DNA of 64,000 nucleotides from NCBI GenBank assembly GCA_949358305.1, contig OX442314.1, positions 27,637,118 to 27,701,117 on the forward strand, read 5' to 3'. This document shows positions 4,680 to 61,857 of the stretch, one piece after another. Origin of the DNA: Strigamia acuminata (taxonomy: Eukaryota; Arthropoda; Chilopoda; Geophilomorpha; Linotaeniidae). Both the position numbers and the translations under genes were made by a program. Below the pieces are notes generated by a model. The model was not told where the DNA came from, made no database searches, and was given only the letters and a program-made list of their open reading frames with translations. Position 1 is the first letter of the stretch; each line of letters starts with the position of its first letter.

Positions 4680-4712
4680 TAGACCGTCTGGATGCGCGCT
4701 TACAAGTTTTTT
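4671..4712 (-). promoter_or_regulatory. programmed -1 ribosomal frameshift signal between gag and pol
   Basis: The gag frame ends CTA AAA AAC TTG TAA. The heptamer A AAA AAC (minus strand of 4706-4712) is a classical slippery sequence, in the correct phase, one codon before the gag stop (4700-4702). Nine bases further on is a perfect 8-bp stem (CGCATCCA / TGGATGCG, plus coordinates 4671-4678 and 4689-4696) closing a 10-base loop. The -1 frame is open through this region and leads directly into pol. Slippery site, spacing and stem are all seen in the sequence; that the signal works is inferred from the known retroviral mechanism. Confidence 0.85.
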
Positions 4713-7683: not shown

Positions 7684-8761
7684 TGCGGCGATCCGGGTTT
7701 TTACTTATTAAATTATATAAATTTAATAAGCAATCGTCGGTGAGATGCCGTACAGGACTTCTACTCTGTGGCCAAATGGTTGTCTAGGGGAATGATTTTA
7801 CACAGAGTAAAGGAAAAATTAGATTGTTTTAATCGTTTTAAATACACCCGAATATAATGCGAAATAATAAGTGTAATGACTGGGTCGATCTGGTTTCTCT
7901 TCGTACTTGGACACTCACAGTTGACCGTTGGCTCCAAAATGGCGTCGATGGCGTCGTGTGAGCGCGGGATTTTAGCGGAGTAAACTCGACGCTAAAATAC
8001 TTTGCTAAAATATACTAAAAATCCTCGCGGAGCAAGCTCAACACGAGAATACGTCTTGCACACAGCGATTTGATTATTACGGAGCAAGCTCGACGTAACA
8101 ATCCGTCTTAACACAATTCGCCTTGTGGAGTTAAACTCGACACAAAGCCTTCAAACTAACAGAGTAAACTCGATGTTAGTTTCACACACAGAAATGGCTT
8201 AAATTACTCGTAGTAATTCAAGCTAGAAAGTTGCTATTCCGTACAGTGGGTACAGACCAGCGATGAAACTCAATTCGTCCAAGAATCACAGATCACACTT
8301 TGCAGTTTTGGCAGAAGTTTGACACGGTTGTGAACAGTTTGGAGGTGGAATCAAGAGTGCGGGAAGAGTGGGCCAAAACCGTTTGGCTCACTTCTAAATC
8401 TGCTCAGAAAAGCTGCGCAGATGACGAGTTGCATGAAGATCACACACGGCCGCCTTCGGGTCGTGTGCAACAATCGAGCCGGGCACGCGCGAGGGGAAGG
8501 GATGCTCCGCCCAGGCACACGCCTAGCAGCATCATCAAAGCAATGCACGCTGCAGCGCGATTGGTTGACGCTGTTGCTGGGCCAAAACTTGCTGCAAAAC
8601 ACAATATTATTTGGGTAATATTGTGTCTTGTTTTATATTTTATTAATGTATGTTTTATTTCAATTTACATTGAAACAAAACATATAAGTTTGTTGAATAT
8701 GTTTATAAGACAATTTGGAAATATGGTGCGCACTCAAATAGGAATATTTGAGGTCACCACA
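7684..8761 (-). repeat. 5' LTR of the gypsy element
   Basis: The right LTR spans TG (7684) to CA (8761), about 1078 bp. Its limits are fixed by comparison with the solo LTR at 49696-50742. The two differ mainly by small indels, including an extra segment near 7930-7955 that contains ATGGCGTCG repeats. The LTR contains a hairpin array (7969-8223) and a GC-rich block near 8440-8590. An open frame on the antisense (plus) strand, 8300-8896, runs off the LTR end; its portion inside the LTR is also open in the solo copy. I do not call it a gene. Confidence 0.92.
7969..8223. repeat. array of five core-conserved hairpins plus one more palindrome inside the gypsy LTR
   Basis: Five units at 7969-7998, 8024-8047, 8072-8103, 8123-8145 and 8153-8182 share the core GAG-YAAR/TAAA-CTCRA (for example GGAGTAAACTCGA). 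Each core is flanked by a different self-complementary arm: ATTTTAGCG/CGCTAAAAT, CTCG/CGAG, TTACG/CGTAA with an outer GATT/AATC, TTGTG/CACAA, and AAACTAACA/TGTTAGTTT. A sixth palindrome without the core is at 8197-8223. All six recur in the solo LTR (49954-50204). Function is unknown; an RNA structure or protein-binding array is possible. Confidence 0.85.
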
Positions 8762-9034: not shown

Positions 9035-9113
9035 TACTATTCTACTAAACTAACTGTAAGTGAATCTTGATGTGCAATAATTGACGTGTACGTTTAAACA
9101 AATTCTACATTAC

Positions 9114-15100: not shown

Positions 15101-18100
15101 AATATTGAGTGTTGCTCTTCTAGTTTCAACGCCCGCCGCAACTCTTCAATTGTCGCCGTCACATTTGTTCGGGAATTCCTCGCGATATGCTCGTGTTTTT
15201 GCAAAAGTCCGCGTGTAACAAATAACATCAACTCACGATTTTTCACGTCTCGACCAACTGCTTTAGACCTGGCTTGAATGGACTTGGCTCTGTTCAAGTA
15301 GCTGTCCACGTTTTCGTCATTTTTCATACGCAATTCCGCCAGTTCAGTTGCCGCGTCGATTTGCTGTTCCTCGGTCGCACCGGCATATAATGCTTTTAAA
15401 GCATCCCAGACCACTTTTGCCTCAGTCATTTCCATGCAGTTTGCTGCCTCCTCGTCCGACATTGTTAAAACGATGATGCCGAGCGCCTCGTTGTTCTTTT
15501 TCGCCCAATCGTCGTACGTGACGAGTTTATTCGCATAGTCTGCATCACCTTGGATGGGCTCCACCACCGCTGGTTCGGTTATCATTTTTGTCAAGTTCTT
15601 TGCAGCCAATAAAGTCTTTACCTTGAACTGCCAGATGAAGTAGTTGTTTGGTTTCAAAAGTTCAATTCGATTTAACGAACCGCCCGGAACCACCCTCTGC
15701 TACCACTTGTTGTATTTCGAATGTCCAAATCAAATGAAAGACCACACGTTAACGGAACAGAAAATAACACGTCTTTACTCTTCAAAAACAGTTTTTACAA
15801 TAATGGAATGACACGCGCATAACGTGTCGTGAACGTTACAAAATCAGATAAAACGTCAAACCAATGATAATTTACAACAATTAAATCTAACAAAAGTTGC
15901 ATATTGCATTCGAGTTGCAGTTTTACGTTATCAGTCGCCATGTTGTCCTCGATTTTATTCCAGAGCTTTTTTGCATTTCTTGGTGCTTGATATTGAAGCA
16001 CTTGGTCACCCGTTAGTGTGTCGACGATTATCTCAATCGCGCTTCGGCTTTCTTGATATTGCAGGTTTTCCATACTTGCTCCTTGGCTTCGCAATTTTAC
16101 ACTCCGGGGTTGCCACGTGGTGGTTCGACTGCAGTAATGGCCGTACGGCAAAGAATTATTTTGAGTAAAATTACTATGATTTATTATGAGGAAATATCTG
16201 ATTTGTATATCTATTAAAAAACATATACTGTATGTGCTACAGTATTTGGTCGCATAAAAACTTCTGGGGCGCGAGGGAAAAAGGATTGAGAAGCCCTGGG
16301 CTAGTTGACGAAGTAGATACAATACTTACAGAAATAGCAGTGTTCATTGTTGCTTTATCCATATAAGGCGTTTGGTATCGCCACACTTCTTCTATTGACA
16401 GTTTTTTGTTCTTTTTAGTCATATTCATTAAATTGATAAAATGAACCTTGCATTCATGCACGCCAATTTCTTTTGCATATGTCTGCCTGTATTTAGTCAT
16501 TATTGATCCATCCCCACATGCAATTAAATTGGGCAAATATAATGTGTTATTTTCTTGAATAATTACTACATATCTTGTTGGCTCACTCAGATATAATGTG
16601 ATTCTTTCTTTGCTCACATAAACTGCCAATACTGCAGAAGTAAATATAAGAAATAAATTCAGTGCAGATTGCAGCAGAAGTCGTATTGGAGGCTGCTGTA
16701 TCATAACCCGTGAAACACCTTTCTTTTTCTCAATGGCCAAATGTATTTGCTTAGTAATATTCTTTTTTATGCCGGCTTTAAGTTGAACAGGTCTGACAAA
16801 TTTAGACAAAATGAGAAGAAACATTTGTCCAATTTCAATCAAAGATAGAAGAGAAAATCCCAAAGAGAATCCCAAATTGCCCCCAAAATCGACTAACAAG
16901 TCTGGAATAGTGTAAATGTAGACTTCTGTCAGTCTGACAAACAATTCTTCCAATACTTTCAAATTTAGGCTAAATAGATCTTTGCCTTTTGGTTCATCTT
17001 CAAAATCTATCAAAAACATTCTATTAATTATGCAACAAAATAGAAGCGATTATAGTTTAACTTGTATCAGTATGCATTATAAACAGATAAGCACTCTGTT
17101 CACAAGGTCTCAAGCAACCACATTCTTCCGCTGATTGTGTAGTCATTGCAAATGCTTTGACATACATGTCAGCCACAATTGATTTGTTTGGCTCTAAACT
17201 GCAATCTATCAAATTTTTGTTGGACATGTAAGGCAACCTAACTTAAAAATCTATGAGTATATCAATGTTGCAATGTTCAATGCAAGTCTGACCTGCATCG
17301 TAGAGGATTTTTTCTTGTCATACAGTCTTGGTAACATTGGATTTCTTTTTTCTTATCCGGTTCGCAAGAAGGGTTTCTTGAAGGTAAAAATTGATACTGC
17401 CATAAAAGAAATGCAGCATTACTATGTTTTGCTGAGCAATCACAATAAATAAGATGAATTAGTGTTATCTGATACACTTACTTTTCGAATGAGAAATTGC
17501 GTGTCTGATTCAATTCCTGACATCACCGAAAAAGTATATTTGTATGGCATGAGGTCAGTTAACACAGCCACCTAATATTCAATTATGTAAAAATAAAAGT
17601 ATATGTTCACACTGTAGTAATAAAATAGTAAAAGCTGAGATTTCTTACCGAAATCTGTGGATTTTCACAACTTCCATTCTTTTTAAGAAGCATATGTATT
17701 TTCATATACTGCACTAATTTTCTATCTATTTAAACTCAAAAGCAAAATTGATTTTTTTATTTTTCTAACCAGAATTAAGGACCAATGATTTTCCTGTTAT
17801 GTAATCTCTATAGGTTACTGAAATTTCTGTGTTATCTTTTCTAGAAATTCCTTCTTTAATTGTTGTTTCATGCAATACAGTTTTACCCTGAAAAAATTAT
17901 ACATCTGTAAGCCTATATGTAATTCAACAAATTATAAGGACAACATAAATGAATATTAATAAATAAATGAATAATTTATGTCCGTTTGTTCTTACGTCAT
18001 TCCCGTCTGTTTTACCGCCTAGGGCGATAAAAGACGTAGTTCTACGACAAAATTATCGCTTCTGTACTTTGTAGTGACCATGAGGAGGGTCAGTGAGGAG

Positions 18101-19854
18101 AATTTGCTCACTTTTGCCTCGTGAGAGGAGTGGGGGTGCCTCAACTCGCTCCTCGTTGGTTGATGCATGTCACCTGACAAAATGGCCTTTGGGGCGAGAA
18201 ATTTGCCTCGCTCCAAACAGCAGAACCGATTCAGCAACAAACCAACATGCACGTGAAAAAACTAAGTCCTACTTTTTAGGCCCTTACCACAAAGAAAGGG
18301 ATTGATACAGGACAGAAGATAATTCTAACATGACTAACATTTCCCTGAATACATCTCCGTAGCCGGTTAGCTGTGTTAACTACTTAACCCCAGCGTCTTT
18401 TCTCATAACAGTGAGGAATAGCCAACATAGCACTAAAACTACCGCCATCAGCGAGTTGTGAGAATATCGCCTCACGAGCCTAATTGGTAGGACGACTTAA
18501 GCCTTTGTGTGAGCGGTCACAGAAGTGAAGCAAGCCTTCTTGTTAGTATTGTAACAAAAATGTAAACAATATTAGAAATATTATGTGCGTCTTACAACCG
18601 ACAGCTAACTTTTTTTTCTCTAAAAAATCAAGTCTAACAGTGTGAGATGCGTCATAGAATGTATGTATACTTTTAATGACAATGGTGTAGAATGCTGGAC
18701 TCCAATTACTTGGCCAACATGATTCCCATCCAATTTTATGAAAGTAACAGTGTGTGTTCGGACGGACACCACATGGTCTGGGGAGGGCCACGAGACGCTG
18801 GATGCAACACACACTATGAAATTATACACAAAATACACAAGAGACACAAGATAGTTTTAGTTATTGACTTTAGGGGGTATGATGGGTGTTTCACAGTGCA
18901 TTTCCCAAGGCGATGGCTACTAGAGCCATCCCTAATCAGACTGCGTGTCACGGCGACCATTGGGAGGCATGACACGCGAGGTCGGTAGTACGGATTCGGT
19001 CGCGTCATTGTGACGTTCGTAGAACTTGTGGCGAACGCGACTTACTCAGACGCTCAGGACCCGGTGGGTGACAGAGTCGCCACACCGACCGTTTGAGTCA
19101 CTATCATAGTCAGTTTAGAGGAGCGGTCATAATGCGACCGTTCGCCTTGCTGGCTTGAAGAACAACACGTGAGCCACTATGGGGCCCACCCACTTCCGGA
19201 AGGTGACTTCTGGGGCCTGATTCCACCAATCAAAGGCCCGCAGCTCTACCTGTTGCAGAGAACCGCAACCAGCGCGCGAGAAATGCAAGGAGCGCGAGAG
19301 CTGCATAAGTGCATTGTCATTGCAGTGCAGTGAGCAGCCTGCAGGGGCAGCTGGTCACAACAGAAATTAAATACCTGTCTTATCTTTATGTGTTGTAAAT
19401 TGCTTGAAATGTTGCTTTTCAGCCAGAAATCCGTATAATTCTCAACATTGACTCCTTTAGAAATCATTGCTTTCAGTGGTAGATAACAAAGACGGCTTTT
19501 TCCTTTTGAACCTTCACCTAATTTTTGCCAGTAGTCGGACAAAGATTTGGTATCGAGGCCAAAGTACATCAGTTCCGGGAATGTCAGTTCACCTATTGGA
19601 ATATATTCGATTTCAACTTTGAAAGGTCCTTGAAAGTAGTATTGAATTCTTTCCATTGTTTGGTAACAGCAAATGGTGCCACAAACGATCAAACCTACTA
19701 ACCAAACCGCACGGACTAAACCACTCTTATTTTTGTTATAAACATTGTCAATAAATTTCAAACTGTCACAGCCTGACACTGAAGTTTGAATTTCTTGCTG
19801 CACGAAACGACGAATAAGACTACGACGAAAACGCAAACCTTCTAATTCTTTCAT
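9114..19854 (-). CDS. double-subunit DEG/ENaC channel, copy 1 (exons 1-9 of 12 visible)
   Basis: Exons, by homology to copy 2 and by splice signals: 19854-19375, 17887-17770, 17725-17649, 17571-17482, 17396-17293, 17237-17062, 17006-16330, 9341-9266, 9199-9114. They sum to 628 in-frame codons with no stop. Unit 1 has TM1 (residues about 47-65), a Cys-rich ectodomain (ECGCLRPC) and the pore helix DFGGNLGFSLGFSLLSLIE. In the same 677-nt exon a basic linker leads into TM1 of unit 2 (LNLFLIFTSAVLAVYV). Exon 8 holds the start of ectodomain 2 (KIAMPTGTCY). Exons 10-12, with the last pore, should lie left of the gypsy insertion and are not visible. Intron 7 is about 7 kb because of copia and MITE insertions. 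The exon 6 donor (GTTAAA) is weak. The gene may still be functional with long introns, or may be interrupted. Confidence 0.85.
9342..9738. other. intron sequence of DEG/ENaC copy 1, no gene seen
   Basis: AT-rich intron 7 sequence. The first part next to exon 8 resembles the same intron of copy 2 (near 49316-49400). The rest contains no convincing open frame, and no known repeat could be named. Confidence 0.6.
9739..9878. mobile_element. short MITE with TAGCTGCATTCAAAAA ends
   Basis: The 140-bp palindromic element has terminal inverted repeats TAGCTGCATTCAAAAACTAA and its complement. The same termini bound a longer element at about 46408-47272. No clear target duplication was seen. It appears to sit inside the old copia remnant. 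Confidence 0.65.
9894..10292. mobile_element. GC-rich MITE, first copy (one end degraded)
   Basis: It starts ACCGTATATCTT and alternates CGCGGGCC-type GC clusters with AT-rich sequence, with internal palindromes around AAACGTTTTGCATATGTTTC. It is related to the complete copy at 10577-10957. It interrupts the protease codons (Trp-Val-Leu-Asp-Ser-Gly) of the old copia remnant. Confidence 0.6.
10577..10957. mobile_element. GC-rich MITE, complete copy
   Basis: The 381-bp element is bounded by CCGTATATCTTCC and GGAAGATATACGG. Inside are GCGCGGGCC clusters and a duplicated AAACGTTTTGCATA...TTTCGGCAGAAAAGTACCG palindromic module. It is inserted between the two zinc-knuckle codon blocks of the old copia gag. 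No transposase is encoded. Confidence 0.75.
11330..11514 (-). repeat. copia 3' LTR
   Basis: 185 bp, TG...CA, matching 15708-15892 with no difference seen by eye. It lies on the gene-end side of the minus-strand polyprotein. Confidence 0.92.
11602..15693 (-). CDS. copia Gag-Pol polyprotein
   Basis: The single frame of about 1363 codons, in copia order, has a Gag N-terminal domain and a CCHC knuckle (CYECGKSGHIAKNC). Protease (WILDSGASAHMS) follows, then integrase with HHCC (HKRLCHMS, CTAC) and a DDE core including RSDNGGEF and a later Glu. RT carries DIKTAYLYG and YVDD, and RNase H has GFADASW, STESE and TKHINRHL. All catalytic residues are present. The frame starts after a TAG inside the primer binding site, and the first codon available is GTG. 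The first ATG (near residue 36) would cut off the conserved Gag start LLKPNNYFIWQFKVKTLL. Initiation is thus unclear: non-AUG start, splicing, or a lost start codon. Confidence 0.94.
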   Translation of the reverse strand: MVPGGSLNRIELLKPNNYFIWQFKVKTLLAAKNLTKMITEPAVVEPIQGDADYANKLVTYDDWAKKNNEALGIIVLTMSDEEAANCMEMTEAKVVWDALKALYAGATEEQQIDAATELAELRMKNDENVDSYLNRAKSIQARSKAVGRDVKNRELMLFVTRGLLQKHEHIARNSRTNVTATIEELRRALKLEEQHSIFRTRGPAMENTTMAFRAQVGKNSGGKKLKGGTKIVCYECGKSGHIAKNCWQRYPEKRPAQAAQRTKETAKIAQVEEATIQHALIVDLENEDHIDDWILDSGASAHMSSKRGLFSSFVEMETIVTTAKKGVKLISTGKGNVILNCQLDGGQTMKILLMDVLFIPELKGNLMSVPRLTAKNYGIFFKGNWADIKSPNGETIAKGIRDGNMYLLQLTKEEQVNAVTTTTKESKELWHKRLCHMSEQTMDKMTKKEMVHGLEYVDAQLEKCTACILGKMTRSPYKKIKEKQSNEILQLVHADLIGPIQVSSLAGSKYALIMTEDFTRKKFVYFLKEKSQTFEFFKTFKAMTEKQTGQKLKKFRSDNGGEFVNANFKRFCDEEGIIHELTVPFNPSGNGISERTNRTLVEATRTLLLESGLPLSFWAEALATSVYVKNRSLTKPNGDLVPEEMWTKRKQAINFLRNFGCEAFLHVPAEKRQKLDQKAKHGIFIGYSVDRKAYRVYVPDDKKVQEGRTVIFNEKIRGADIFSLNEKNEKRRFCQEIEDEIIVAEPNVDDNNQQPAVAVEDEPQPEQQAEQQLDQPARVGRPVGSTKAVLEQRHAEQLELREQQLQQEGVRRSQRIAAQHEAVNAAVEAVDELLVDEFFTPETFDQAMNCADKERWKEAMNSEIDSLHVNNMWTLVKREKKMTTIKSKWIFRIKLNADRSVNKYKARLVAVGYSQRAGIDFTETFSPVVRLESLRIILSMVAKHKLFTRQFDIKTAYLYGLLDETIFMEQPEGYEQEDFVCKLERSLYGLRQSGRCWNQRLDEELTKIGLIPLVNDRCVYIYKRKKDYLILGVYVDDILAAFTRPKILDRIMRRLKRVFEVIDMGEVHFLLGMEISITEAGVFIGQQKYISEILVKYDLFDGIVANTPMATGQDLNDFENSKKIDQQLYQQILGSLMHVMVVTRPDLSFAISALSTYARDPRQVHFRAAKRVLRYLKKTSETRLFFPSEDGNLQGFADASWCSTQEAKSYTGMILKIGLSTISWKTKKQRLVAMSSTESEILAICELLKSVKWARDFLSEVGEGSSVQRSVPIYTDSSPAIQVLCGANQFGRTKHINRHLMFIKDELKLGNIKLIHLPSTEMIADFLTKAVAKDKFTKGRKGVNLKDEEKMNEVEEKEKSEDK
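15688..15705 (-). promoter_or_regulatory. copia primer binding site, initiator tRNA-Met type
   Basis: The element strand reads TGGTAGCAGAGGGTGGTT. It differs by about one base from the complement of the arthropod initiator tRNA-Met 3' end. It starts two bases from the LTR and overlaps the first possible gag codons. Confidence 0.8.
15708..15892 (-). repeat. copia 5' LTR
   Basis: 185 bp, TG...CA, equal to 11330-11514 by eye. It directly adjoins the primer binding site. Confidence 0.92.
17888..19374. other. intron 1 of DEG/ENaC copy 1, enlarged by insertions
   Basis: Copy 2 has only 185 bp here, so about 1.3 kb (roughly 17990-19350) has been inserted. The inserted part contains a dispersed repeat (18546-18925, matching 36872-38060) and GC-richer unrecognised sequence at 18940-19340 with inverted blocks such as GTTCGCC/GGCGAAC. 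No gene was found. Confidence 0.6.
18546..18925. repeat. dispersed repeat, uninterrupted copy
   Basis: It shares GTATTGTAACAAAAATGTAA, GAATGCTGGACTCCA and CATGGTCTGGGGAGGGCCAC with 36872-38060. This copy represents the empty site for the foldback MITE inserted in the second one (TA at ACACACACTA). Confidence 0.8.
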
Positions 19855-23285: not shown

Positions 23286-26276
23286 ATTGAGGGCCCTGTC
23301 CGAGATTTGAACTTGGAAAGTTTTTTTTTTGATCCGCCATTTTGTTTTGCCTTGTGCTCAACCCTTTGTTTCATTGTGGTTAGCTTTTTGTCTCAATTTT
23401 ATCGTTGTCACGTATTGTTTTACTATTTGTTTCAGGTTTTGTTGCATTTTGCTTTATTTTTTGGCGGGGGTCAATTGTATTGTTTTCCATTTTTCTTTGT
23501 TTTGGACTTGGGTTAATTGCTTTTTTATGACCGGAATTGAAGGGGTGTTCTGTTTACCACTTTGGGTCCTGGTGGGTTTAGTTGTGGGAGGCGGGGTGCT
23601 TTTTCGTTTGAAGGTTGTTGAATTGTATTTTTCTCAGTGCTGGTGTGGTTGGGGCTCTGAAATTAATTTTTTCAGACGCACTGCAACCAGCCAAAACATT
23701 GTGATATGTGTTTCTCTAATTGGCTTTGGGAGATTTGCTCACCCCTCGGTCAGTCACAGGGGTGCATGTCACGGTGTCTTATCTTTTGTGTTTTTCTCCC
23801 CTTGTACTGACTTGACCTCGCAGTGCTTTTGTCTTTATTTTTCAATTGCACTGTGTGTCTATTTTGGTGCCGGGTTGGGAAACATTTGTTTTTCTTCGGC
23901 CACATTTTTTCCTTGGTTTGAGCTGGGTATTGCTCAGATTTTTGGGAGATTTGTGCAATTTTCTTTTGTTTTATGGTAATTTTTCTTTTTGCTGGTCTGG
24001 CTGGAATTTGTTTGACTTGTTTTTTTTGTGTTCTAATTGAGGTCCACTTTACAATGACAGTAGCCAACCAACACATTGGTCTAATACCATTCTTTATTTT
24101 TTTTTAGGTATGTTTTGTTTGTGTGCTTGGCTTTGGCTAGAGTCGACCTGGATGTTTCCTTTAATCATCTTGGGGCGACAAAAGCTGACCAACACATGAG
24201 CTTGATACCATTTTTTATTATTTTATGATTTTTCATTTCTTGGTGTGCAACCTATAGAGGGAGGAACCAGTTGGGGGTGCTCAGTTTTTGTGGTTTGGGG
24301 TGTTGGAATAGATCTGTTTCATCATCTCAAGGGCAATTGAGAGTGGCTGTTGAGTGTCTTAGAGGGTCGGCACCACACCGGACAATTGGTGGATTTGGTT
24401 CTTTGATTCCTCTCTCAGGGTCGGGCGATTTGGTTCCTTTTCCGAGTGTGTTTTTTTTGGCGGGAAACGTGGTTGTGGTGTTGTTGTGGTGGGCGGGCAT
24501 GCTGCTGGGTGCAGTATATCCCAGTTCAGCCCTGTGCCTCGCCCGGACGATGATAAACTAATGCGGTATATTTAGGGGAGCTCTGTTCATTACTGGCCAG
24601 AGGTACATTCCTGGTTTCAGCGGTTTGAGTAATCTTTTGAATCACAGGCGCACGTACTTCCTTGGAGCACACGGAGACTGGGTTTCCAACCCTGTCCCGG
24701 GCACTGGTGGAAGCAGTTTGGCATGATTTTGGCTTTTTTGTGTTTTTGTGGCCACTTATGGCACATTTTTGTCAATTTCGCTGCCGTTCTGTCGAAATTG
24801 GGTCTCGGATAGCGGGGAAGGCGGCCCTTGCAGGGGACTGCTTGGGTGTCGAGCCTAACGGTGTTTGCTCTCGGACCGCGCGTGGGATGTTTGCAAACAC
24901 GAATTGGGTGGCTAACGGCTTTGAAAAGAGACCGTGAATCCAGCCCAACATCTTTTTTATCTTTGTTTTCAATGTGCTGTGTGTAGATCATTTTGTGATA
25001 CACGCCACATTTTTCTCCTAACCTTTCTCTTATACTATTTCTACTCTATTTTCATAACCGGATTGGATTGGGAACGTGACACTCCTGGGGTGTGGACCTA
25101 ACACATCCTGGCATTGGGCCGTGTTCAACAGTACTCTGCCCGGTCTAATCCAGATTCAGTCGCCGATTTCTCTTCACTCTTTGTCTGAGGTGACTGAGTC
25201 GATTTTTGCCTCATCAGGGTTATCGCGACCTTGATGGTGTTTTGGGTGTGAATTTGGTGCTTGAGCTAGCTATGCCAAAGGAAGCCTAAGATACGCGATT
25301 TTAGCGTTTTCAGCAGGGGTTAAAACTGGTGGCAGATGTATACACCAGCGCAAAGGAAAACGTACGACCTTAGCATCGAAGCTGTGGGGCGCGATGAGAA
25401 AATGCCACGAAAAATCGATATACGCAGTTTTTTCTACTTGGTTCTGGCGCGAATAATTTAGAACACGAAGGGAAAGACGAACCATGCATTGTGTTTGTTA
25501 GTTTGGGAGTGTCAGTAAACTTCCAGTCGCCCATTTCTATCTTCTGGGGCGTGGATAAATGCCGGAAAGGTGTTCGCCAGTTTCTATCTTCTGGGGCGTG
25601 GATAAGTACCAGAAAGGTGTTCGCTAATTTTTTATTTTTTGGGGCGTGGATTAAAAATACCAAAAAGTGTTCGCTAATTTTTTATTTTGGGGCGTGGATT
25701 AAAAATACCAAAGTTTAACCGCTAATTTTATGTTTTGGGGCGCAGAGAAAAGCCAAAATTTGTTGTTTTGATTGTTGTTCAATAATTAAAACTATCTTGT
25801 AATAATTTATTATGTTTTATTCTTTATAGTACATTTTAAATCAGTGACAGATTTGCATGACGCGGTCAGGGTATTGAACCATTGACCTCGCAGCTCTTCT
25901 GTTCAATCGACTTTTAACCCTAAGAGCGTGAACTCTGATGAAAGAACAGGATGACACCCCTGGTGCATACCTTTTGTCTTCACCAGATGCTTCATTGCCA
26001 AATTACTAAAACTAGCCTGGTAGATCTTTGAAGCACCGTTAAGGCGCCCGAAGGTCCAACACATGGCCGGTGGTTGGACATTCCATCTGAAGGGGAACTG
26101 GAACCTTTTTGCAAATTACGGTTGACCTAGTTGTGGGCGGCAGTGATTGGTTAAGGTGACCCTGACGTTTGTTTGTTTATAGGAAGTGGAGAAGTTTTCG
26201 AATAATTCCCCACTCCTAGCTTGTGCGTGGTCTTGATCACACTCACGAGATACCACTGACAAGAATCGGAAAAAGA
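23286..26276 (+). other. T-rich leader of the 13.3-kb element, no convincing gene
   Basis: 23300-24560 is strikingly T-rich and A-poor on the plus strand, so long hydrophobic frames arise by composition alone. 24600-25800 is mixed, with short repeats of GGGGCGTGGATTAAAAATACC (25540-25740). 25850-25930 shows a tRNA-like patch (B-box-like GGTTCAATACC on the minus strand). A TTTATAG acceptor-like site lies at 26176-26182, ahead of the ORF. Confidence 0.55.
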
Positions 26277-27233
26277 ATGGCAAGCACGGAACTTGACCCG
26301 GCTTGGGCCAGAGAACTGGCCATTCTGTGCGATGTTTATCCATGCGAGATGAAGACGCAGGATGACGTCGTGAGAATCATTAAAAAATATCAACGCGACA
26401 GGCGGCAGGCAGTGCTTGGCGCCGCCGCTGCCCGTAGCAGCGCGCGTTGGTCCAACTTTGCAGCGAAGCGGGCGCGTAAAGCAGCTGCTCGCGCTCAGAA
26501 GGAAGTTACCGAAATGGTGGAAGCTTGGGCAAGATCCACCGTTTCACTCCGGAACGATTTTTCAAAACGCATTTTTGAATTGTCCAGGAGAGCGGCTATT
26601 GCCCAAGCCGTTGCTCAGGACGACTCGGATGTCGAGGGTGAGCAGGAAGATGCGCCAGATTTGATCGCGGGGAACGACGTGGTTGACCCCGCCGAACTCT
26701 ACGACCGGATCTCGCCCTTCCAAACTCTAAGAACGACTGAAGCAGACGAAGGCGTCATAACAGACGGCTCGTCGCCCGGTCAAGTTTGTTTTGTCGGCTT
26801 AGCCGTTGGTGCGGTCTGGGATACTGTGAACGTGGCCGGACTGGGGAAGGATCTGCCTCTCCCGTTCGTTGACATTCATTTTTCCGACCGCAGCGCGGTG
26901 GCACTCATGGATTCTCGTGCTTCTGGGCAGTATATGAGTAGTGCCGCGGCCGAGGAATACGGACTAACAGCCTCGATTGAACCCTGCGATGATTTTGTTA
27001 GGGTTATGACAGGCGGTAGAGTCACCAGTCCCGTCGGGACGGTGAACGTGCATGTCAGCTGGCAGACGGGAGCTGATTGGTTACGGTTTGCAGTGCTACC
27101 TTCCGCGTCTAACTTCATCCTTCTCGGGTGCAGTTGGCTCGGCGAGAATGGCATTGTAATTCGCATCGCCCGGAATGATTGGTATCATATCGACAATCCG
27201 GGAGAGTACCAGTCCGAACGGCGAATCGCCTAA
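26277..27233 (+). CDS. Gag/protease-like ORF of the 13.3-kb element, protease active site altered
   Basis: The ATG at 26277 opens a 318-residue frame. The N-terminal part is helical and very rich in Ala, Arg and Lys. Residues of about 200-310 align by motif with a retroviral-type aspartic protease, including a strand before the active site and the later ILLGCSWL flap/core segment. The catalytic loop reads Asp-Ser-Arg-Ala (codons 26910-26918) instead of Asp-Ser/Thr-Gly-Ala, which should abolish activity. The stop lies inside the foldback element beginning at 27212. If that element is left out of account, this frame is in phase with the RT frame downstream. Confidence 0.75.
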   Translation: MASTELDPAWARELAILCDVYPCEMKTQDDVVRIIKKYQRDRRQAVLGAAAARSSARWSNFAAKRARKAAARAQKEVTEMVEAWARSTVSLRNDFSKRIFELSRRAAIAQAVAQDDSDVEGEQEDAPDLIAGNDVVDPAELYDRISPFQTLRTTEADEGVITDGSSPGQVCFVGLAVGAVWDTVNVAGLGKDLPLPFVDIHFSDRSAVALMDSRASGQYMSSAAAEEYGLTASIEPCDDFVRVMTGGRVTSPVGTVNVHVSWQTGADWLRFAVLPSASNFILLGCSWLGENGIVIRIARNDWYHIDNPGEYQSERRIA

Positions 27234-28466
27234 GGTCGAATTTTTGAGATTCGCCCTTGGAAATGTAATTGTACCTTTCTAATGGCGAATCTAGGAAAAT
27301 TCGCCATTGGAACTGTAATCGCACCTTTCTAATGGCGAATCGATTTTAATGTTGACCAATTCGCCATTAGAAATGTAAATTGTACCTTTCTAATGGCGAA
27401 TCGATTTTAATGTTGACCAATTCGCCATTAGAAATGTATTTGTACATTTCTAATGGCGAATTGGTTTTAGTGTTGACCAATTCGCCATTAGAAAGGTACA
27501 ATTTACATTTCTAATGGCGAATTGGTCAACATTAAAATCGATTCGCCATTAGAAAGGTACAATTACATTTCCAATGGCGAATTATAATAAATTGGCCATT
27601 GGAAATACATTGTAATTCACATTGTAATTCGCCTTTTCGTAACGTCCCCTAAACAGTTCATGCTTCAAGGCCCCAAATATGTAGTTCCACCTGTGTGTAA
27701 TAATATTTTTAACAGCAGAAAACCTTTTCTTAAGTGACTGAGTTTATTTCTATTACTTGGGTTGAAGTTTTATTTCCTACAGTACTTCATCACACTCATA
27801 TCACATCTAAAACTACAATGTTGGCCTTGTGGTAGGGCTGGTAAGCATCCGACTAATAAAAGTACAATAGGTCAACATGCAAAACAATTGAGAGAAATCA
27901 ATCTAACAAGCATTTTGTTGCCAAAAAATGGCGACAAAATTATCGACGAGAAATTTATCAGAGCCTGTGGCAGCTGGCCCAACCCTGTACATGAATTACC
28001 ATAGTTCAATCACCGATAAGAAACTTTGTACACAGGAATTGTTTTCTTTATTTGTTTCTTTCTAATACAAATTATTGCTGCAAATTTTATATAGTTTCAA
28101 CCTCCACCAGCCGGTGGTCTTGTAGTAGCAGCTGCTAGTGCTGGTGCTGGTAGATTTTGTATAAATGGAACTACACAAAACTACACAAAACAGTATTGAC
28201 CGATTCGCCATTGGAAATGTCCAATTACATTTCCAATGGCGAATCGATTTAATTTTACACCGATTCGCCATTGGAAATGTAATTGGACATTTCCAATGGC
28301 GAATCGGTTTAATTTTACACCGATTCGCCATTGGAAACCTGTTTGGTCATTTCCAATGGCGAATGTGTGCAAATTCGCCATTAGGAATGTTTTTGGCAAA
28401 AAAATAAATTTTTTCGCCATTAATCATTATGGCGAGATTCGCCCTTAGGCGATTCGCCGTTCGGAC
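27212..28466. mobile_element. foldback element made of hairpin arrays
   Basis: The 1255-bp element has perfect 24-bp terminal inverted repeats (27212-27235 and 28443-28466, beginning GTCCGAACGGCG). Both arms are arrays of about 40-bp hairpins built from TTCGCCATTRGAAATGTA and its complement: about seven in the left arm (27245-27600) and four in the right (28198-28440). The unique centre (27630-28190) has one unrecognised small frame (27762-28004). No direct target duplication is visible. It separates the protease and RT frames of the host retroelement. Confidence 0.8.
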
Positions 28467-30465
28467 GGCACCCCATCCGGGAGTAACGTTTCCTTTCGCC
28501 CCTCAGCCTGATCAGCTGGACGAAAAAGGCGCGGATGTTGACAAGTGGGCAAGGGTCACGCTGGAACACGGCGTTGATGCGGCCGCACTGTCGATGTCAT
28601 CCAATCAATTAGATCTATTGGAAGCCTGTAAAATAGAAGACATGCGGAAAGTGAGACTGACTCGTGTTCTCGACGAGTTTGGACACACCTTCAGCGAGAC
28701 GGGAGGTTGTCATCCAACGGTAGAGTTGTTAATTCCCACGGGTGATACGCCGCCTTTCTCGTGCAAAGTCAAACACACATGCCCAGCGGAGGCGAGAGCT
28801 CTCCGCCGTTTAGTGCGTAATGCGCTGAGAAGGGGCGAAATAGAAGAAAGCGTCAGTGTTTATAGGAGCCAGCCAGTCGTAAGTATGTTACCTGATGGAA
28901 CCTTTGATGCTTGTATAGATTTCAGACAACTGAATGCTATCACGGAGAGGGATGGGTATCAGGTCCCGTCGATCCCCATGATTTTGGCTTGTCTGGAGGG
29001 GAGTATATTTTTCTCGACGTTAGATCTGGCGATGGGGTGTTTCCAATTACGGATTGCGCCGCTCGACAGACCTAAAACAGCATTTTATACACCCCTTGGT
29101 ACTTTTCAATTTGTGAAGTTACCTTACGGTTTGTTGAATACTCCTATGGCGTTTCAACGACTGATGGACAAAGTACTCGGCGATGCGAAGTTTAAGTGGG
29201 CATTGCCCTACCTGGACTCGATCGTCGTGTTCAGTAAAACATTCGAAGAACATTTAACGCACTTGTCAGATGTGCTAGGCAGGTTGAACAAGCATTGTTT
29301 GACCGCCAGCCCGTCTGGTTCGTGTATTTTATCGACCTCTTGGGATTTTCTGGGCTATTCGATGACTCGGTATGGTTTCCGACCGAACGAACGCCGCGTT
29401 CAGGCGATTGTGGATTATCCGCAACCGAGGAATGTTGCTCAGCTGCGACGTTTCCTTGGCATGTTCGGCGGAGACACACCGGCGATCGAGGGTCTCGAAC
29501 ATTCCTCGAATCCACTGGAAGCGCTGCTTAATGACGGCGCTGCGTGGAATTGGTCTAATGAGTGTCAGGGTGTGTTCCAGCTCTTCAAGGATCATCTTGC
29601 GCGTGGGAGCTTGCTTCCTATGCCTGAGTTCAACAGAACTTTTGTCATCCAGGCTGCCGCAAGTAGAGTTGGGCTCGGAGCAGTCCTCACACAGATGGAT
29701 CATCAAGGAGTCAAAAGGCCCGTTGCCTATGCGAGTCGTGCGCTGCAAGGCACCGAGACAGCGTTCAGCCTGTCAGAATTGGAATGTCTGGCGGTTCTGC
29801 AGGCAGTCGCTTCCTTTCGACCATTCATCGCGTACTCGAAGTTCGTCATCGAAACAGGTTGTATGGCGTTGCTCTGGCTTTTGTCATCAACAAGCGCGTC
29901 AGGTCGCCTGGTGCGATGGGCGATGCAACTGCAACAGGTGAGATTTTCGATTAAGTTTAACAAGCGTGCGGACGACAGGATCGCGGTCGCTCTTTCAAAG
30001 GTTGGCCTAGATGACGTGGAAACGACATCGGCGGCTACGCCCGAGGAAGAAGCTGCAATCATGCTGGCCCACACGCTCGTTACGGAGAGTTTCGCTGGTA
30101 CGATCATGTCTTACGACGAGGTTAGACAGGTCCAGCGAGATGACCCGGACTGTAGCGCTGTCATAAAGTGGTTAGATGAAGGGCAAAGAGACGACCATCT
30201 TTTGTCCCAACTCCCACCATCCATGACGCAATACAAACCAGATTTTGTGTTCGGTGGGTGCGGAGAATTGTGCTTAAATACCCCAATCTCACCCGACACG
30301 CCGCTAAGCAGAGCGGAGCACGGCTCGGATGTAAAAATCTTGATGCCTGCACCACTGCTTGATCGCTGCCTTGACGTCATTCGACTGCATCCTCGTTATG
30401 CGCAGGATAACGCGGCCGACATGGTGAAAAGGTTGCGACGAATGTTTTTCTGGCCAGGAACGTAG
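28467..30465 (+). CDS. RT/RNase H-like ORF with inactivated catalytic sites
   Basis: An unbroken frame of about 665 codons follows the foldback element; the open frame itself begins at 28429 inside it. Gypsy RT motifs are clear (DACIDFRQLNAITERDGYQVP, FFSTLDLAMG, FVKLPYGLLNTP). Catalytic motif C reads Tyr-Leu-Asp-Ser (29209-29220), not Tyr-Leu-Asp-Asp. In RNase H the first Asp is Ala (29656-29658), Asp-His is Gly-Cys (29857-29862), and the last Asp is Val (29986-29988); the Glu (SELECLAVL) stays. The frame ends just inside the integrase zinc module, whose Gly-His is also lost (HPRYAQDN). Family assignment is secure; lack of activity is inferred from these residues. Confidence 0.88.
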
Positions 30466-47638: not shown

Positions 47639-50600
47639 TTAATATCTGGCATTTTTGTTTATAATTATAAACTGATGAAGTATCTTTTGCAATAGTTCTG
47701 GAATTGCAAGAATAGAAAGGCCAAGCATTAATGCAAAAGAATTTCCAATATCACAACACAATGCAACTGGTGTGTAAGATAATATTTGTGTAATCTGTTC
47801 AATTATGTTATTCACTGGAATTATACCAAGAACTTTGAGTGGAAATGCTTCAGGATGTTGAAAGTAAACGTAAGAGTCAAATATTTGTTCTTTGCAAGGT
47901 GGATGACAACCACAGTCTTTCATTACATCAACTTTTAAAGAATTGTTCATGAACAGGTGCAATGAATTAATGGCTTCTTCAGCATTAACACAGTTATTTT
48001 TTGTATTAGTGAAAAATGGCAACCTAATGTTATAAAAATGTATTATACTAGTAAGTCCTGGGTTGAAATATTACTTTTAAAAACTCAATTGCACTATACA
48101 TATACAGTGTGAAATTAACCACACAAGTGAGACGTATTTAAGTTTCTCATACTTTGTCAATAAAATGTAAGAAAGTTATTTGCCTGTGAAAAATTACTAC
48201 TCACTTGCATTGAACAGAATTATAAATCATTTTTTTGTAACAATAATCTTGGCATCGTTTGTATTTGTCAGGGTCAAGGCAAGGTCGTGCTCGCAAGTTT
48301 AATCGAACGGTCTAAATTAGAGAAAATGTTTGATCAAGTTCTATATAATAATCTGATGTATTACTTTAAGCATTTTAAATGTAATAAGGATATAGGTGTT
48401 AGCTGTAACACTTCTTCTACTTCTGAGAATTGCTGGTATTTCAGCATCATTTTGTCGGAAGTACACCTAGAAAGAAAGAGATAACAATTTATGGGGATAA
48501 ATTAAAAAAAACCCCTAATTTTACTGAATTTCCCATTAAATTAATATTAAATTTACACCACTTTACTATATTTTCTACTAAATACATTTTTTCTTTCCAC
48601 TAATTTAACTTAACCTAAATTAATTACTTTTTCCTCTAAAAAAGTTTATTTCAATCATACTGATTGTATCACTAAAAAATTGGTTGCATACACCATTTTC
48701 ACTATTGTGCAATGAATGCCTTCGTGGCTTTCGACAATCTTCCTCGCTTGCGTTTCTGGCCCAAAGGCACGTTCTTGACCTCACTTGGAACACTGAGGGA
48801 GAAAAAAATTTAAGTGGGAAATTCAGTAACTGGAAAATTTAATATTTATTTAGTGACTAATTTCTGGGAAATTAGGGGGGTAATAAATGGAACCCTTTAT
48901 ACTCTAATAAAGTGAGTTAGTTAGCAGCTACTTTTCTACTAAACTGAATTAGTGGCTACTATTCTACTAAACTGAATTAACAGCTATTCTACTCATATCC
49001 AACTAAAGCACTTGTTAAAAGTATTAGTTGAGTCTTGATGTGCACTAATTGAAGTTGACATAAATTCTACATTACTTCAAACTCATGCTGATTACATATT
49101 TGATGTCGCAATTGTACTAAACTCAAAAATATTGCTGGGAAAGATCCTATATATTTTTGTGGAGCTACAATAATACAATTTTAATACATATAATTTCTGT
49201 GATTTTTATAGAATGTTTAGTTACTGTATATACCGATGCTAAATTGAAAACATGTTCCAGTGGGCATAGCTATTTTCCTCCATGAAACTCTATCATTTAT
49301 TCCAAAAGGCTGCAACTATATTTATGATCAATTTTCAGTTAGATTAACACATATTTTCATTTTTCAATCGCTCTAAATTATTGGCTGGTGTCTTGATGTC
49401 ACATTCACTATTCTGCTAGGATTACCAAGCTTATTGCAAGATGGTGTGTGCATAATCTGGTGGTCAAATGATATGATTCTGAATGTTGGGTGCAATCATA
49501 TCTAATCCTCGATATTGACCCCCTTTAAACAATCACTGGTGCCAAGTTTGTTTAATGTGCATAGATTAAAATTTCATTTGTTTAAAGTGCATAACATACT
49601 GGGTGGCCCACAGAAAACCGGCCCCACAATATAAGGAGGGTTACGAAGGGTGTTTCAAAAAATTTATACACGCACAAAATTAAATATACTAGTACTGCGG
49701 CGATCCGGGTTTTTACTTATTGAATTTATATAATTTAATAAGCAATCGTCGTAGAGATGCCGTACAGGACTTCTACTCTGTGGCCAAATGTTTGTCTAGG
49801 GGAATGATTTTACACAGAGTAAAGGAAAAATTAGATAGTTTTAATTAGTTCAAAAATACACAGGAGGTATATGCAAAATAATAATGTTTGGGGTCGATCT
49901 GGCTTCTTCTACACCAATATAGACTCACAGTCGGCCGTTGGTGTGAGCGCGGGATTTTAGCGGAGTAAACTCAACGCTAAAATACGCCTCTAAATATTCT
50001 AAAATCCTCGCGGAGCAAGCTCAACACGAGAATACGTCTTGCACACAGCGGTTCGATTATTACGGAGCAAGCTCGACGTAACAATCGGTCTTTACACAAA
50101 TCGCTTTGTGGAGTTAAACTCGACACAAAGCCTTCAAACTAACAGAGTAAACTCGATGTTAGTTCCACACAGAAATGGCTTAAATTACGTGTAGTAATTC
50201 AAGCTAGAAAGTTGCTATTCCGTACAGTGGGTACAGACCAGCGATGAAACTCAATTCGTCCAAGAATCACAGATCACACTTTGCAGTTTTGGCAGAAGTT
50301 TGACACGGTTGTGAACAGTTTGGAGGTGGAATCAAGAGTGCGGGAAGAGTGGGCCAAAACCGTTTGGCTCACTTCTAAATCTGCTCAGAAAAGCTGCGCA
50401 GATGACGAGTTGCACAAAGATCACACACGGCCGCCTTCGGGTCGTGTGCAACAATTGAGCCGGGCACGCGCGAGGGGAAGGGATGCTCCGCCCAGGCACA
50501 CGCCTAGCAGCATCATCAAAGCAATGCACGCTGCAGCGCGATTGGTTGACGCTGTTGCTGGGCCAAAACTTGCTGCAAAACACAATATTATTTGGGTAAT

Positions 50601-53600
50601 ATTGTGTCTTGTTTTATATTTTGTTAATGTATGTTTTATTTCAATTTACATTGAAATAAAACATATAGGCTTGTTGAATATGTTTAAAAGACAATTTGGA
50701 AATATGGTGCGCACTCAAATAGGGATATTTGAGGTCACCACAGTACATAAATCTTTAGCTGTGGGCAGGGTTCTTTGATTAACTTTTCTAGTGCAGTTTT
50801 TACCGCTCTTTCGTTTGGTGTTTAGTTTTTCACAATTCGAGCTTTTGTTCTGGATATATTTGCATTTTTTATCAATTTTTGTCCGAATTCACCAAGTTTA
50901 ATCAAGGATATATCCTTGGTTTGATTGCACTAGTCAATCCTGAATTTTGTGATATTTTTTGAATCTCTTCAATGGTACTTTTGTAGATTTCTTCAGATGT
51001 ACTAGTACGAGATTTTGCTTGATTTTGCTTGATTTTGCTTGATTTTGCTACTTCTTTTGAGATTTTGCTAAAGTAAAGTCGTATGGTATCAAAAAAGTGT
51101 TAAAGGTACGGTACCAGTCCCACAAATTGCAGTATTTTTTGAAAAGTACTGTGTACTTGTACAGGTACCGGTACTGCTGAAGAAATCCACAAAAGTACCT
51201 ACCACAAAATCTAAAATTCAAGCTGACTAGTGCCATCAAACTTGGAAAATTCGGACAAAAATTGATGAAAAATGCAAATATCTCGAGAACAAAAGCTCGG
51301 ATTGTGAAAAACTAAACACCAAACGAAAGAGCGGAAAAAACTGCACTAGAAACGTTAATTAAACAATACTGTCCACAGCTAATGATTAATGTATATTTAA
51401 TTTTGTGTGTACACACTTTTTTGAGTCACCCTTCATAACCCTCCTAGTATTGTCGAGCCGGTTTTATGTGGGCCACCCGGTATAACTCCGTAAACATTGT
51501 ATGTATAAATTAAAATTTCAAGCTAGTGCTCAAATTTTTATTTGGCTTTATCTTTCAAACCTACACTGCAAAAAGTTTGGATTTCCAAAAAAAATCATTG
51601 GATAAATTTTAGTTTGGAAATAAAATGGATAGGAAATGAGAAATATTTTATAGAAAGTGACAACTTACACTTTTAGCTAACTCCATGGAAAAAATATCCA
51701 TTCTGGGTGTTTGATAGCGCCATACATTCTCAATTGATGGTTTTTTGCCTCTGATTGTCGCATTCATTAAATCAATGAAGTGAATTTTGCATTCAGGAAT
51801 TCCTGTAGTTTTGGCATATTTCTTCCTGTAGTGCGTCATTATGAGACCGTCCATACATGCAATAACATTGGGCAAATATATTGTGTCATTTTCTTGAATA
51901 ATTACCACATGTCTTGTTGGTTCACTGAGATAAAATGAGATTCTTTCTTTGCTCACATAAACTGCTAATATTGCAGAAGTAAATATCAGTATTAAATTCA
52001 ATGTTGATTGCAGCAGAAGTCTCTTTGGTGGTTGCTGTATCGCATCCTGTATCACACCTTGTAAAACATCCTTTTTCTCAATGGCTAACTTTTGCAAATA
52101 CTTAGTGATTTTCTTTTTTACGCTAACTTTCAGTTGAACAGGTCTGATGTATTTAGACAAAATGAGCAGAAAGATTTGTGCAATTTCAATTAAAGACAGA
52201 AAAGATAATCCCAAGGAGAATCCCAAATTGCCCCCAAAATCGATCAACAAGTTTGGAATAGAGTAAATGTAGGTTTCTGTCATTCGGACAAATAATTCTT
52301 CCAAAACTTTAAGATTTAAACTTATTAGATCTTTGCCACTTTGTTCATCTTCAAAATCTAATAAAAAACATTGATAATTTTGATAATTACGCATGATAAT
52401 AACAGAGATTCTAGTTTTACTTGTATCAGAATGGATTATAAAGAGATAAACACTCCGTTGACAAGGTATCAAGCAACCACATTCTAATGATGACCGGGTA
52501 GTGGTTTCATGATAAAATGCATTCTCATATATGTCAGCCACAATTGATTTATTTGGCTCTAAACTGCAATCTTTCACATTTGTATTAGACATGTAAGAAA
52601 ATCTAAGCCAAAAATAAAAACCTATGAGTATATCAATATTTAGAAGCTGTAAGCTATTCCGACCTGCATCGCTGAAGATTTTTTTTTGAAACACAGTCTT
52701 GGTAACATTGGGTTTCTTTTTTCTTATCTGATTCGCAGAAGGGATATCTTGAAGGTAAAAATTGATACTACCAAAAAGTATAATAGCAGCATTACCATTT
52801 TATACGATAATTAATAATAAGCTAAACTAATAATGACTAGAAAGAGATGAGTAATGAAATGGGTACAACGTTTGTTGTACGCGAAAATGGCCGGAAAGTT
52901 GTTTCCCACCAAAAACTCACTCACATGGCTGACTCCGGAAACGGAAACGTTCACGGTGGTGCTCGATTGCGGCGGCGAGTGAGAGCACTGCTGTTTAGCA
53001 GAGATCACTGAATAACAGTGGAAATCCATGTATCAACTGTGGCTGATATACACTAAAGTGCTGGCTTTGCAAACTTAGCAGAAAAATAGCAGGAAATATC
53101 CCAAATCACCTAAACCGAAACACGGTCAATACTTGCAGTGGCAGAGCAGTGGCAAAGTGTGTTATTTGGTTGTAGGTGAATTCAAGAGTGTGCCAATAAA
53201 TTATAGCCCAGCACACTTCGGATCTGCTCAGCAGATATGCGCAGTGAGCGCATTTTGGTGCATCAAAAGAATAATTGCACCAAAACGGTTAATTTGCAAC
53301 CCACCCCAGCCAAATTTGGATGAAGTGTGCCTTGGGAGTTTTCACCCCCAAGACACAGCAGGCTGGTTTGGCGTGTGCCAAACCAGAGTAATTAAAAATA
53401 ATAAATTTTTTTAAGTGGTGACAACAAATATATAAAAATACACCTGAGATCACAACAACTTATACACTTTTGTAATTCACTATTAATTCCACAATATCTA
53501 CAATGGGTTAATTAAGCTTACATTTCGAATAAAAAATTGAACATTAGATTCAATTCCTAACTGCCCTGTAAAAGTATGTTGGTAAGGATTGACGCCATTC

Positions 53601-54622
53601 ATCACAGACATCTAATATTCAATTATTTAAAAAAAAAAGTCGAAGTTACAAATTGTAATAAAATAGTAAAAGTTGAGATTTTTACCAAAATTTGTGGATT
53701 TTCACAGTTTCCATTCCTTTTAAAGAGCATATGTAGTTTCATACATTGTGCTAATTTTCGATCTAAAATTGCCAAAAATATTAGACCTTAAAAATTATTT
53801 TTTGTTTTTGTTTTTATTTCTAACCAGAATTAAGAACCAATGATCTTCCAGTTATGTGGTTCCTATAGCTTACTGAAATTTCCGTGCTATCTTTTTTAGA
53901 AATTCCTTCTTTAAATGTCGTTTCGTGCAATACAATTTTGTCCTAAAAATATTATATTTATTTGTTCATGAATATTTTTTTTTTATTAAATTTTAATTTT
54001 TTTAAAATTCATATTTTAACCCATAATACTGTTATGATGCTGGTCTCGGGCATCACAACATGACATGATCCCCTGGTGAACATACGATGTCCCTTCCAAC
54101 ATTAAGAAACTAATAGGAATTAAATACCTGTCTTATCTTTATGTGCTGTAAATTGCTTGAAATGTTGGTATTGAGCCATAACTCCGTATAATTTTCAACT
54201 TTGACTTTTTCCAGAATGATTTCTTTCAGTGGGAAATAACAAGCAATTAATTTTTTCCTGTTGTCCTGCATTGAAGAACCTTTTCCCATTTCATTCCAGT
54301 ACTTGGACAAAGATCTGGTATCAAGACCGAAATACATCACTTCTGGGAACGTCATTTCACCTATTGGAACAAATTCGATTTCAACTTTGAAATCTGCTTT
54401 AAAGTAGTATTGTATTCTTTCCATTGTTTGGTAACAGCAAATGGTGCCACAAACGATCAAACCTACTAACCAAACCGCACGGACTAAACCACTCTTTTTT
54501 TTGTTGAAAACATTGTCAATAAATTTCAAACTATCACAGCCTGACACTGAAGGTTGAATTTCTTGCTGCACGAAACGACGAATAAGACTACGACGAAAAC
54601 GCAAACCTTCTAATTCTTTCAT
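47639..54622 (-). CDS. double-subunit DEG/ENaC cation channel, copy 2 (complete, 12 exons)
   Basis: Exons: 54622-54128, 53942-53825, 53762-53686, 53611-53522, 52767-52664, 52602-52421, 52357-51669, 49315-49234, 49164-49076, 48466-48365, 48311-48205, 48023-47639. All use GT-AG sites, and the sum is 2520 nt (840 codons with stop). Unit 1: TM1 about 47-65, ectodomain with CYQDC and ECGCLIPC, pore helix 396-421 with Gly-Leu-Ser at 405-407. A Lys-rich linker (about 424-468) follows. Unit 2: TM1 about 470-490, ectodomain with TGTCFQF, CQDYC and CGCHPPC, and a terminal pore helix with Gly-Leu-Ser at 813-815. Linker and both flanking helices lie in one 689-nt exon. Known DEG/ENaC proteins are single subunits forming trimers. 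The usual His-Gly before TM1 is Ser-Gly here. Likely a plasma-membrane Na+ channel; its stimulus cannot be inferred. Confidence 0.9.
49696..50742 (-). mobile_element. gypsy solo LTR with 4-bp target duplication
   Basis: The 1047-bp LTR is of the same family as 7684-8761, TG...CA, flanked by GTAC (49692-49695 and 50743-50746). No internal sequence remains, so it arose by LTR-LTR recombination. It lies inside the foldback element, so it is younger than that insertion. Confidence 0.95.
49954..50204. repeat. hairpin array in the solo LTR (second copy)
   Basis: The same five core hairpins and the sixth palindrome as in 7969-8223. The fourth stem is longer here (GCTTTGTG/CACAAAGC), and the third gains an outer C-G pair. 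One core differs (CTCAACG for CTCGACG), outside the stem. Confidence 0.85.
52768..53521. other. intron 4 of DEG/ENaC copy 2, enlarged
   Basis: The intron is 754 bp against 85 bp in copy 1, so about 670 bp (roughly 52820-53480) was inserted. Short inverted blocks are present, for example TGGTTTGGC/GCCAAACCA near 53362-53383. No coding sequence recognised. Confidence 0.55.

Positions 54623-60526: not shown

Positions 60527-61857
<1,331 letters not shown>

Follow-up and report, generated by a model that had tools for sequence, protein, structure and literature searches.

The window analysed here is a stretch of 64,000 nucleotides from chromosome 1 of the centipede Strigamia acuminata (C1:27637118-27701117). 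On its reverse strand lie two paralogous tandem genes of the DEG/ENaC channel family, here termed A and B (Table 1). A preliminary description of this DNA had proposed a 12-exon frame for gene A, and an enumeration of GT-AG sites reproduced it: 840 codons including the stop, which give a stop-free protein of 839 residues containing both of the GLS pore motifs that had been reported. Three open reading frames at the coordinates of the gene match the Pfam ASC profile. The same enumeration yielded a 10-exon version that is likewise open, with 782 residues. The two frames differ by the small exons 8 and 9, which lie in the 3.2-kb gap 3' of exon 7. The block containing these exons is 74% alike in gene B and 71% alike in a further locus (L039), and exon 8 encodes GTCFQFS, which we take to be the DEG/ENaC finger motif. 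Sequence alone leaves the borders of both exons unfixed, with 120 frame-compatible splice combinations. Intron 7 is largely occupied by a 1.9-kb stretch that by eye has inverted ends and is probably a mobile element; a second copy of 754 of its bases, 97% alike, lies at positions 8008-8761 of the window.

Table 1. Features of tandem genes A and B, in positions of the window unless a chromosomal position is given
Feature	Position	Strand	Basis or remark
Gene A (DEG/ENaC tandem)	47639..54622	-	12 GT-AG exons
Exon 1: start codon, cytoplasmic N-terminus, unit 1 TM1	54128..54622	-	Pfam ASC match to ORF
Exon 2: unit 1 ectodomain	53825..53942	-	77% identity to gene B
Exon 3: unit 1 ectodomain	53686..53762	-	splice model
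Exon 4: unit 1 ectodomain	53522..53611	-	45% identity to gene B
Exon 5: unit 1 Cys-rich part	52664..52767	-	66% identity to gene B
Exon 6: unit 1 thumb, ECGCLIPC	52421..52602	-	65% identity to gene B
Exon 7 (join exon): unit 1 TM2, linker, unit 2 TM1 and early ectodomain, one frame	51669..52357	-	
GLS pore motif, unit 1 (residues 405-407)	52203..52211	-	
Linker, residues 425-468: 44 aa, 11 K+R, 3 D+E, no Met	52020..52151	-	
Unit 2 TM1 (residues 470-488)	51960..52016	-	hydropathy
Exon 8: unit 2 finger, GTCFQFS; borders uncertain	49234..49315	-	block conservation
Exon 9: unit 2; borders uncertain	49076..49164	-	block conservation
Exon 10: unit 2 ectodomain	48365..48466	-	
Exon 11: unit 2 Cys-rich part	48205..48311	-	
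Exon 12: unit 2 thumb (DCGCHPPC), TM2, stop	47639..48023	-	Pfam ASC ORF match, splice model
GLS pore motif, unit 2 (residues 813-815)	47714..47722	-	
Gene B join exon	16336..17004	-	protein 74% identical to gene A
Gene B exon 1	19375..19854	-	
Gene B last exon	C1:27631833-27632210		beyond window

Taken alone, unit 1 scored 71.4 bits and unit 2 47.7 bits against Pfam ASC (PF00858), both above the curated cut-off of 23.6 bits. Hydropathy analysis of the 839-residue protein found four membrane segments, so that a pair of helices around a large cysteine-rich ectodomain is present twice (45-63 with 404-422, and 470-488 with 801-827, the last being a merger of two overlapping hydropathy windows). 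The selectivity-filter site G-x-S in TM2 is GLS in both units, and the CxC...C ectodomain motif that had been described for each was found in the thumbs, as ECGCLIPC and DCGCHPPC. A His-Gly motif ahead of TM1 is a usual feature of DEG/ENaC proteins. It is absent here, unit 1 having SG (SVSGCDSLKFI) and unit 2 no clear counterpart; by eye, four single-unit loci have TG (L002), IG (L007 and L008) or no G (L005) at that position. The family's rule of one subunit per polypeptide does not hold, two units being read in one frame. Among solved structures the best relatives of unit 2 were PDPNaC1 (1.4e-11) and BRTNaC1 (9e-11), both of the centipede Scolopendra, and those of unit 1 were FaNaC1 (1.6e-8) and BRTNaC1 (1.8e-8). 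BRTNaC1 could be aligned along most of unit 2, and PDPNaC1 through its second half. A search for the ASC family scored 93 of 2097 candidates, and a match was also obtained in one of 14 control genomes, that of Thermotoga maritima.

The join had been placed within a single exon, and this is where it was found: exon 7, of 689 nt, holds TM2 of unit 1, the basic linker and TM1 of unit 2, and is stop-free over 229 codons, for which the chance at its own base composition is ~1e-8. There is no in-frame ATG between the pore helices, and methionine is absent from residue 381 to residue 524. The preliminary description had named, as a finding that would refute the tandem, transcripts that always stop after unit 1 or begin at unit 2, with a promoter or poly(A) site inside this exon. 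A check with simple patterns gave no AATAAA or ATTAAA and no acceptor-like pyrimidine-AG site in the exon; it gave three donor-like sites, one of which is within the linker at 52121, so that an isoform with unit 1 alone is possible.

Gene B, the first and join exons of which lie within 19854-16336, is only one of many relatives. A search of the whole genome (237,517,015 bases in 157 contigs) with exon 7 gave its best 150 places, with 38 on C1 at 59-100% identity, here called the close clade, and the remainder on C1, C3, C4, C5, C6, C8, C9 and C11, down to 22% identity. The small contigs C32, C50 and C68 duplicate chromosomal copies with no difference in score, possibly as haplotype duplicates. 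With queries from three divergent copies added there were at least 356 distinct places. The fused TM2-linker-TM1 segment spans both helices in at least 343 of these, of which 332 are stop-free and 11 carry a stop in some aligned match; prior to the fourth query there had been at least 313 places, 304 of them across both helices and 298 stop-free. All of these counts are lower bounds because each search scores about 150 places (one gave the best 150 of 157 matches). The overlap between the query lists was also small, with 15 places common to all of the first three, so the true number of fused segments is larger. An alignment drawn from 12 sources, which represent about nine subfamilies, contained 13 rows with TM2, linker and TM1 and neither stop nor intron; one of these rows (L047) has lost part of TM2. 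It is predicted from these matches that the genome holds hundreds of fused two-unit genes.

Exon 7 was open in all 30 of the close copies examined (30 of the 38 in the clade), and GxS was present in unit 1 of every one, in 29 by pattern and in L029 by eye. Their linkers are 33-44 residues long with a net charge of +2 to +11; 25 open with YIRP and five lack methionine. Pooled dN/dS was 0.37 for the unit 1 part of exon 7, 0.60 for the linker and 0.33 for the unit 2 part, values that come from at least 188 of 435 pairs, non-independent and kept at an overall pS of 0.02-0.5. Between the linkers of genes A and B it was 0.48 (40 codons). Weak purifying selection spans the join in the close clade. 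That the linker is less constrained than the units could equally mean that it is a spacer, or a joint that is cut.

The number of units per gene was read from the order of exons along the chromosome. On C1, where the top 39 first-exon, 38 fused and 37 last-exon matches of the close clade were ordered, 36 of the 38 fused exons stood in the order first-fused-last; one lacked a last exon, one lacked a first exon and two first exons stood alone. On C6 (3.6-4.3 and 13.2-13.4 Mb, partial matches included) the order was found for 38 of 42 fused exons, with a few unpaired partial matches. These two clades are mutually distant. Together they have 74 of 80 fused exons in first-fused-last order, and in neither does a first exon ever meet a last exon without a fused exon between them, from which it follows that there are two units per gene in both. 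A succession of two fused exons was seen at a single place on C6, where both matches are partial and were taken for a single broken exon. The two ordered clades thus showed no gene with three units and none with one. Single-unit genes are found elsewhere in the genome, where at L002, L007 and L008 the frame stops after TM2 and exon 1 of the next gene comes after it, and where there are further last-exon matches of the single-unit kind.

When the fused segment was used as a query against UniRef, four predicted proteins of Strigamia maritima were recovered, all of them fragments from automatic annotation. T1ILX1 shares 53% identity with the C6 type and extends into the second Cys-rich part of unit 2; T1JC02, T1JF29 and T1JFH9 have 43-46% identity to the C5 type. 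A fifth match is a 127-residue piece with one TM2 only. Since the segment occurs in four S. maritima proteins the fusion is probably older than the split between S. acuminata and S. maritima, and at least two fused types probably predate it. No full-length two-unit protein was found in the protein database by word-limited searches, one with the full-length protein and one with an alignment of joined pieces; these two negatives say little, since the fused-segment query did find the S. maritima proteins.

Phylogenetic analysis was confined to the 23 units with both helix segments, those with one segment being dropped. Eight unit 2s fell on one side of a branch with support of 75/43, which was present in 74% of 200 bootstrap trees. 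The best tree did not unite the unit 1s in a single clade, although such a clade was not rejected (p-AU 0.31). The pore helix reads D-x-G-G-N in nine of 11 unit 1s (D-A-A-G-N in two) and in seven of eight single units (D-V-G-G-T in one). In unit 2 it reads C-D-I-G-[NS] in five of eight, with C-D-F-G-N, S-D-I-A-N and C-E-V-G-S in the rest, and the GG is found in none. The unit 2 filter is GxS in seven and GMC in one, and by eye an acidic residue follows it in two of eight unit 2s as against ten of 11 unit 1s. The altered pore helix common to the eight unit 2s, together with their grouping, fits one old fusion, and these comparisons lend moderate support to a single origin. The superfamily would then probably descend from one old fusion that was later multiplied in arrays.

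To our knowledge, DEG/ENaC channels are known only as three separate subunits. The preliminary description had held that a natural concatemer was undescribed, and searches of the open PMC library did not speak against this: none of the matches listed (the best 20 of 91-6,964, most subscription papers lying outside) dealt with a two-unit DEG/ENaC protein occurring in nature. Automated databases may well contain unremarked entries with two ASC domains. K2P channels, two-pore channels and voltage-gated sodium channels have several repeats per chain and separate subunits in their relatives, and the Strigamia protein is like them in being one chain with repeated units. It is unlike them in that their repeats split a four-fold pore evenly, whereas two repeats do not split a three-fold pore. 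The insect pickpocket proteins are also an arthropod radiation of DEG/ENaC channels, but a far smaller one of single-unit proteins. In Drosophila the family has 31 members, for which taste roles have been proposed (PMC12304301). PDPNaC1 is described as a single subunit of 421 residues that forms a homotrimer (PMC12714832), and both it and BRTNaC1 were described from the antennae of Scolopendra (PMC12714832, PMC12804983). Each half of the Strigamia protein is like these two in its ASC profile match, thumb cysteines and G-x-S or similar filter; the difference from PDPNaC1, as described, is the presence of two units on one chain. In ASIC and ENaC channels, the stoichiometry of which has been disputed (PMC4529235), covalent tandems have been used in the laboratory to set the order of the subunits. 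Engineered concatemers of two, three or four linker-joined ASIC1a subunits gave currents in oocytes and, like the Strigamia chain, join the C-terminus of one subunit to the N-terminus of the next (PMC4529235). They are, however, laboratory constructs in which identical copies are joined by an N1Q7 linker (PMC4529235), whereas the Strigamia tandem is natural, combines two different units through a basic linker of 33-44 residues (in the close clade) and is predicted in hundreds of genes. In the main text of the S. maritima genome paper (PMC4244043), where chemosensory families are treated, the family goes unmentioned: the terms pickpocket, ENaC, sodium channel and amiloride are absent.

Judged from its sequence, gene A codes for two covalently linked DEG/ENaC subunits and belongs to a two-unit superfamily of Strigamia. 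The natural two-subunit concatemer first proposed is borne out at the level of the gene by the single exon, the constraint on the linker and the hundreds of paralogs, and further by the two units per gene in two ordered clades and by the second species. It is very probable that the fused gene is real and translated as one chain, and likely that this chain acts as a sensory channel. The product would be a single protein that crosses the membrane four times and has its basic linker in the cytoplasm; unit 1 would supply the canonical pore helix and unit 2 would be a specialised neighbour. If the termini of each unit are cytoplasmic, as in the family, the linker could join neighbours in one trimer. 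The preliminary description had inferred a pore of six units or a mixed trimer. On the reading preferred here the pore would still be trimeric, with one tandem setting the unit 1 - unit 2 pair. Since a two-unit chain fills three places unevenly, there must be a second chain, a single-unit partner or no simple trimer; the third place may go to a single-unit subunit or to unit 1 of another chain. This exact filling of the trimer is offered tentatively, as a serious candidate that may well prove wrong. A cue meeting the variable ectodomain would evoke a cation current in sensory cells, and the size of the family would reflect a receptor repertoire. A sensory role of this kind is suggested by how many genes there are, by their arrangement in arrays and, by analogy, by the expression of the closest centipede relatives in antennae.

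The same chains could be assembled in other ways. Three of them might place a pore of unit 1s beside a trimer of unit 2s with three linkers between, which would use every unit and require no partner. Two units per gene without a three-unit gene in either ordered clade, a difference between units 1 and 2 that is consistent across the sampled genes, as if each made contacts with its own kind, and the GxS retained in seven of eight unit 2s all accord with this. It is nevertheless quite improbable, since the absence of GG from all eight unit 2 pore helices and the rarity of the acidic residue after the filter (two of eight, against ten of 11 unit 1s) recall a helper subunit more than a pore former. 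Alternatively, the unit 1s of three chains could form the pore at the centre, with the unit 2s tethered around it as regulators that have no part in its lining. In favour of this, D-x-G-G-N occurs in nine of 11 unit 1s, seven of eight single units and none of eight unit 2s. Such an arrangement is unlikely in view of the full ectodomain, CxC...C thumb and mostly GxS filter of unit 2, the exon 7 part of which is as constrained as that of unit 1 (0.33 and 0.37). Because these two readings differ from the preferred one in assembly only, the likelihoods given to the readings overlap.

The fusion might instead be only a device for making the units in equal amounts, with linker cleavage or splicing freeing unit 1. 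The linker is basic, shows the weakest constraint within exon 7 (dN/dS 0.60) and contains one donor-like site, but its length is kept at 33-44 residues in 30 close copies, 25 of which start with YIRP, and neither a stop nor an intron separates the units in any of those 30 or in the 13 aligned rows, so that a polyprotein is very unlikely. Two separate genes wrongly joined, a pseudogene or a fault of the assembly could account for the stop in some aligned match at 11 of 343 places and for the three small contigs that duplicate chromosomal copies. This is hardly credible for a join that lies within one exon, is constrained, recurs at least 332 times without a stop and is present in a second species; on these grounds an artefact of assembly, a pseudogene and an error in the linking of exons were all rejected.

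On the preferred reading, a covalent DEG/ENaC dimer most likely underlies a large repertoire of sensory receptors. A bolder version, which is rather unlikely, has a single covalent dimer giving rise to a geophilomorph superfamily of chemoreceptor size, in which three chains form a six-unit complex and not a plain trimer; this would provide either two pores that differ in kind or one pore with fixed regulators, and an even number of units in a three-fold family. A natural tandem of two diverged units in hundreds of genes offers a ready test of how a three-fold pore is reconciled with a two-unit chain, and the fused family suggests that myriapods have a repertoire of receptors that has gone uncounted.

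Gene B, the second tandem DEG/ENaC gene in the window, has a Copia-type frame in its intron 7 and a Gypsy-type pol frame before its last exon, which lies outside the window, so that the gene extends over about 25 kb. Intron 7 of gene A, the other tandem gene, holds a stretch of ~1.9 kb (49601-51480) whose inverted ends match as judged by eye, and 754 bases of this stretch are 97% identical to 8008-8761, inside the span of gene B. About 6 kb from gene A lies an exon resembling a two-pore-domain potassium channel, a class of channels that are themselves internally duplicated.

Features in the window around the two tandem genes
Feature	Position	Strand	Remarks
Gypsy-type pol ORF	231-4751	-	between exon 8-9 block and last exon of gene B
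Exon 8-9 block of gene B	about 9061-9377		
Copia-type ORF	11602-15699	-	inside intron 7 of gene B
Further Gypsy-like gag-pol remnants	26220-30465	+	
Two-pore-domain potassium channel-like exon	60527-61366	-	Pfam Ion_trans_2, two stretches

Elsewhere in the genome, the search found numerous matches resembling the last exon on contig C10, and no fused segment (TM2 of unit 1, linker and TM1 of unit 2) on that contig was among the matches listed in four fused-segment searches. At one locus on chromosome 1 (L047, C1:26439000) the fused exon lacks the GxS part of the unit 1 pore helix with its frame intact, and this copy is possibly a non-conducting unit or one in decay.
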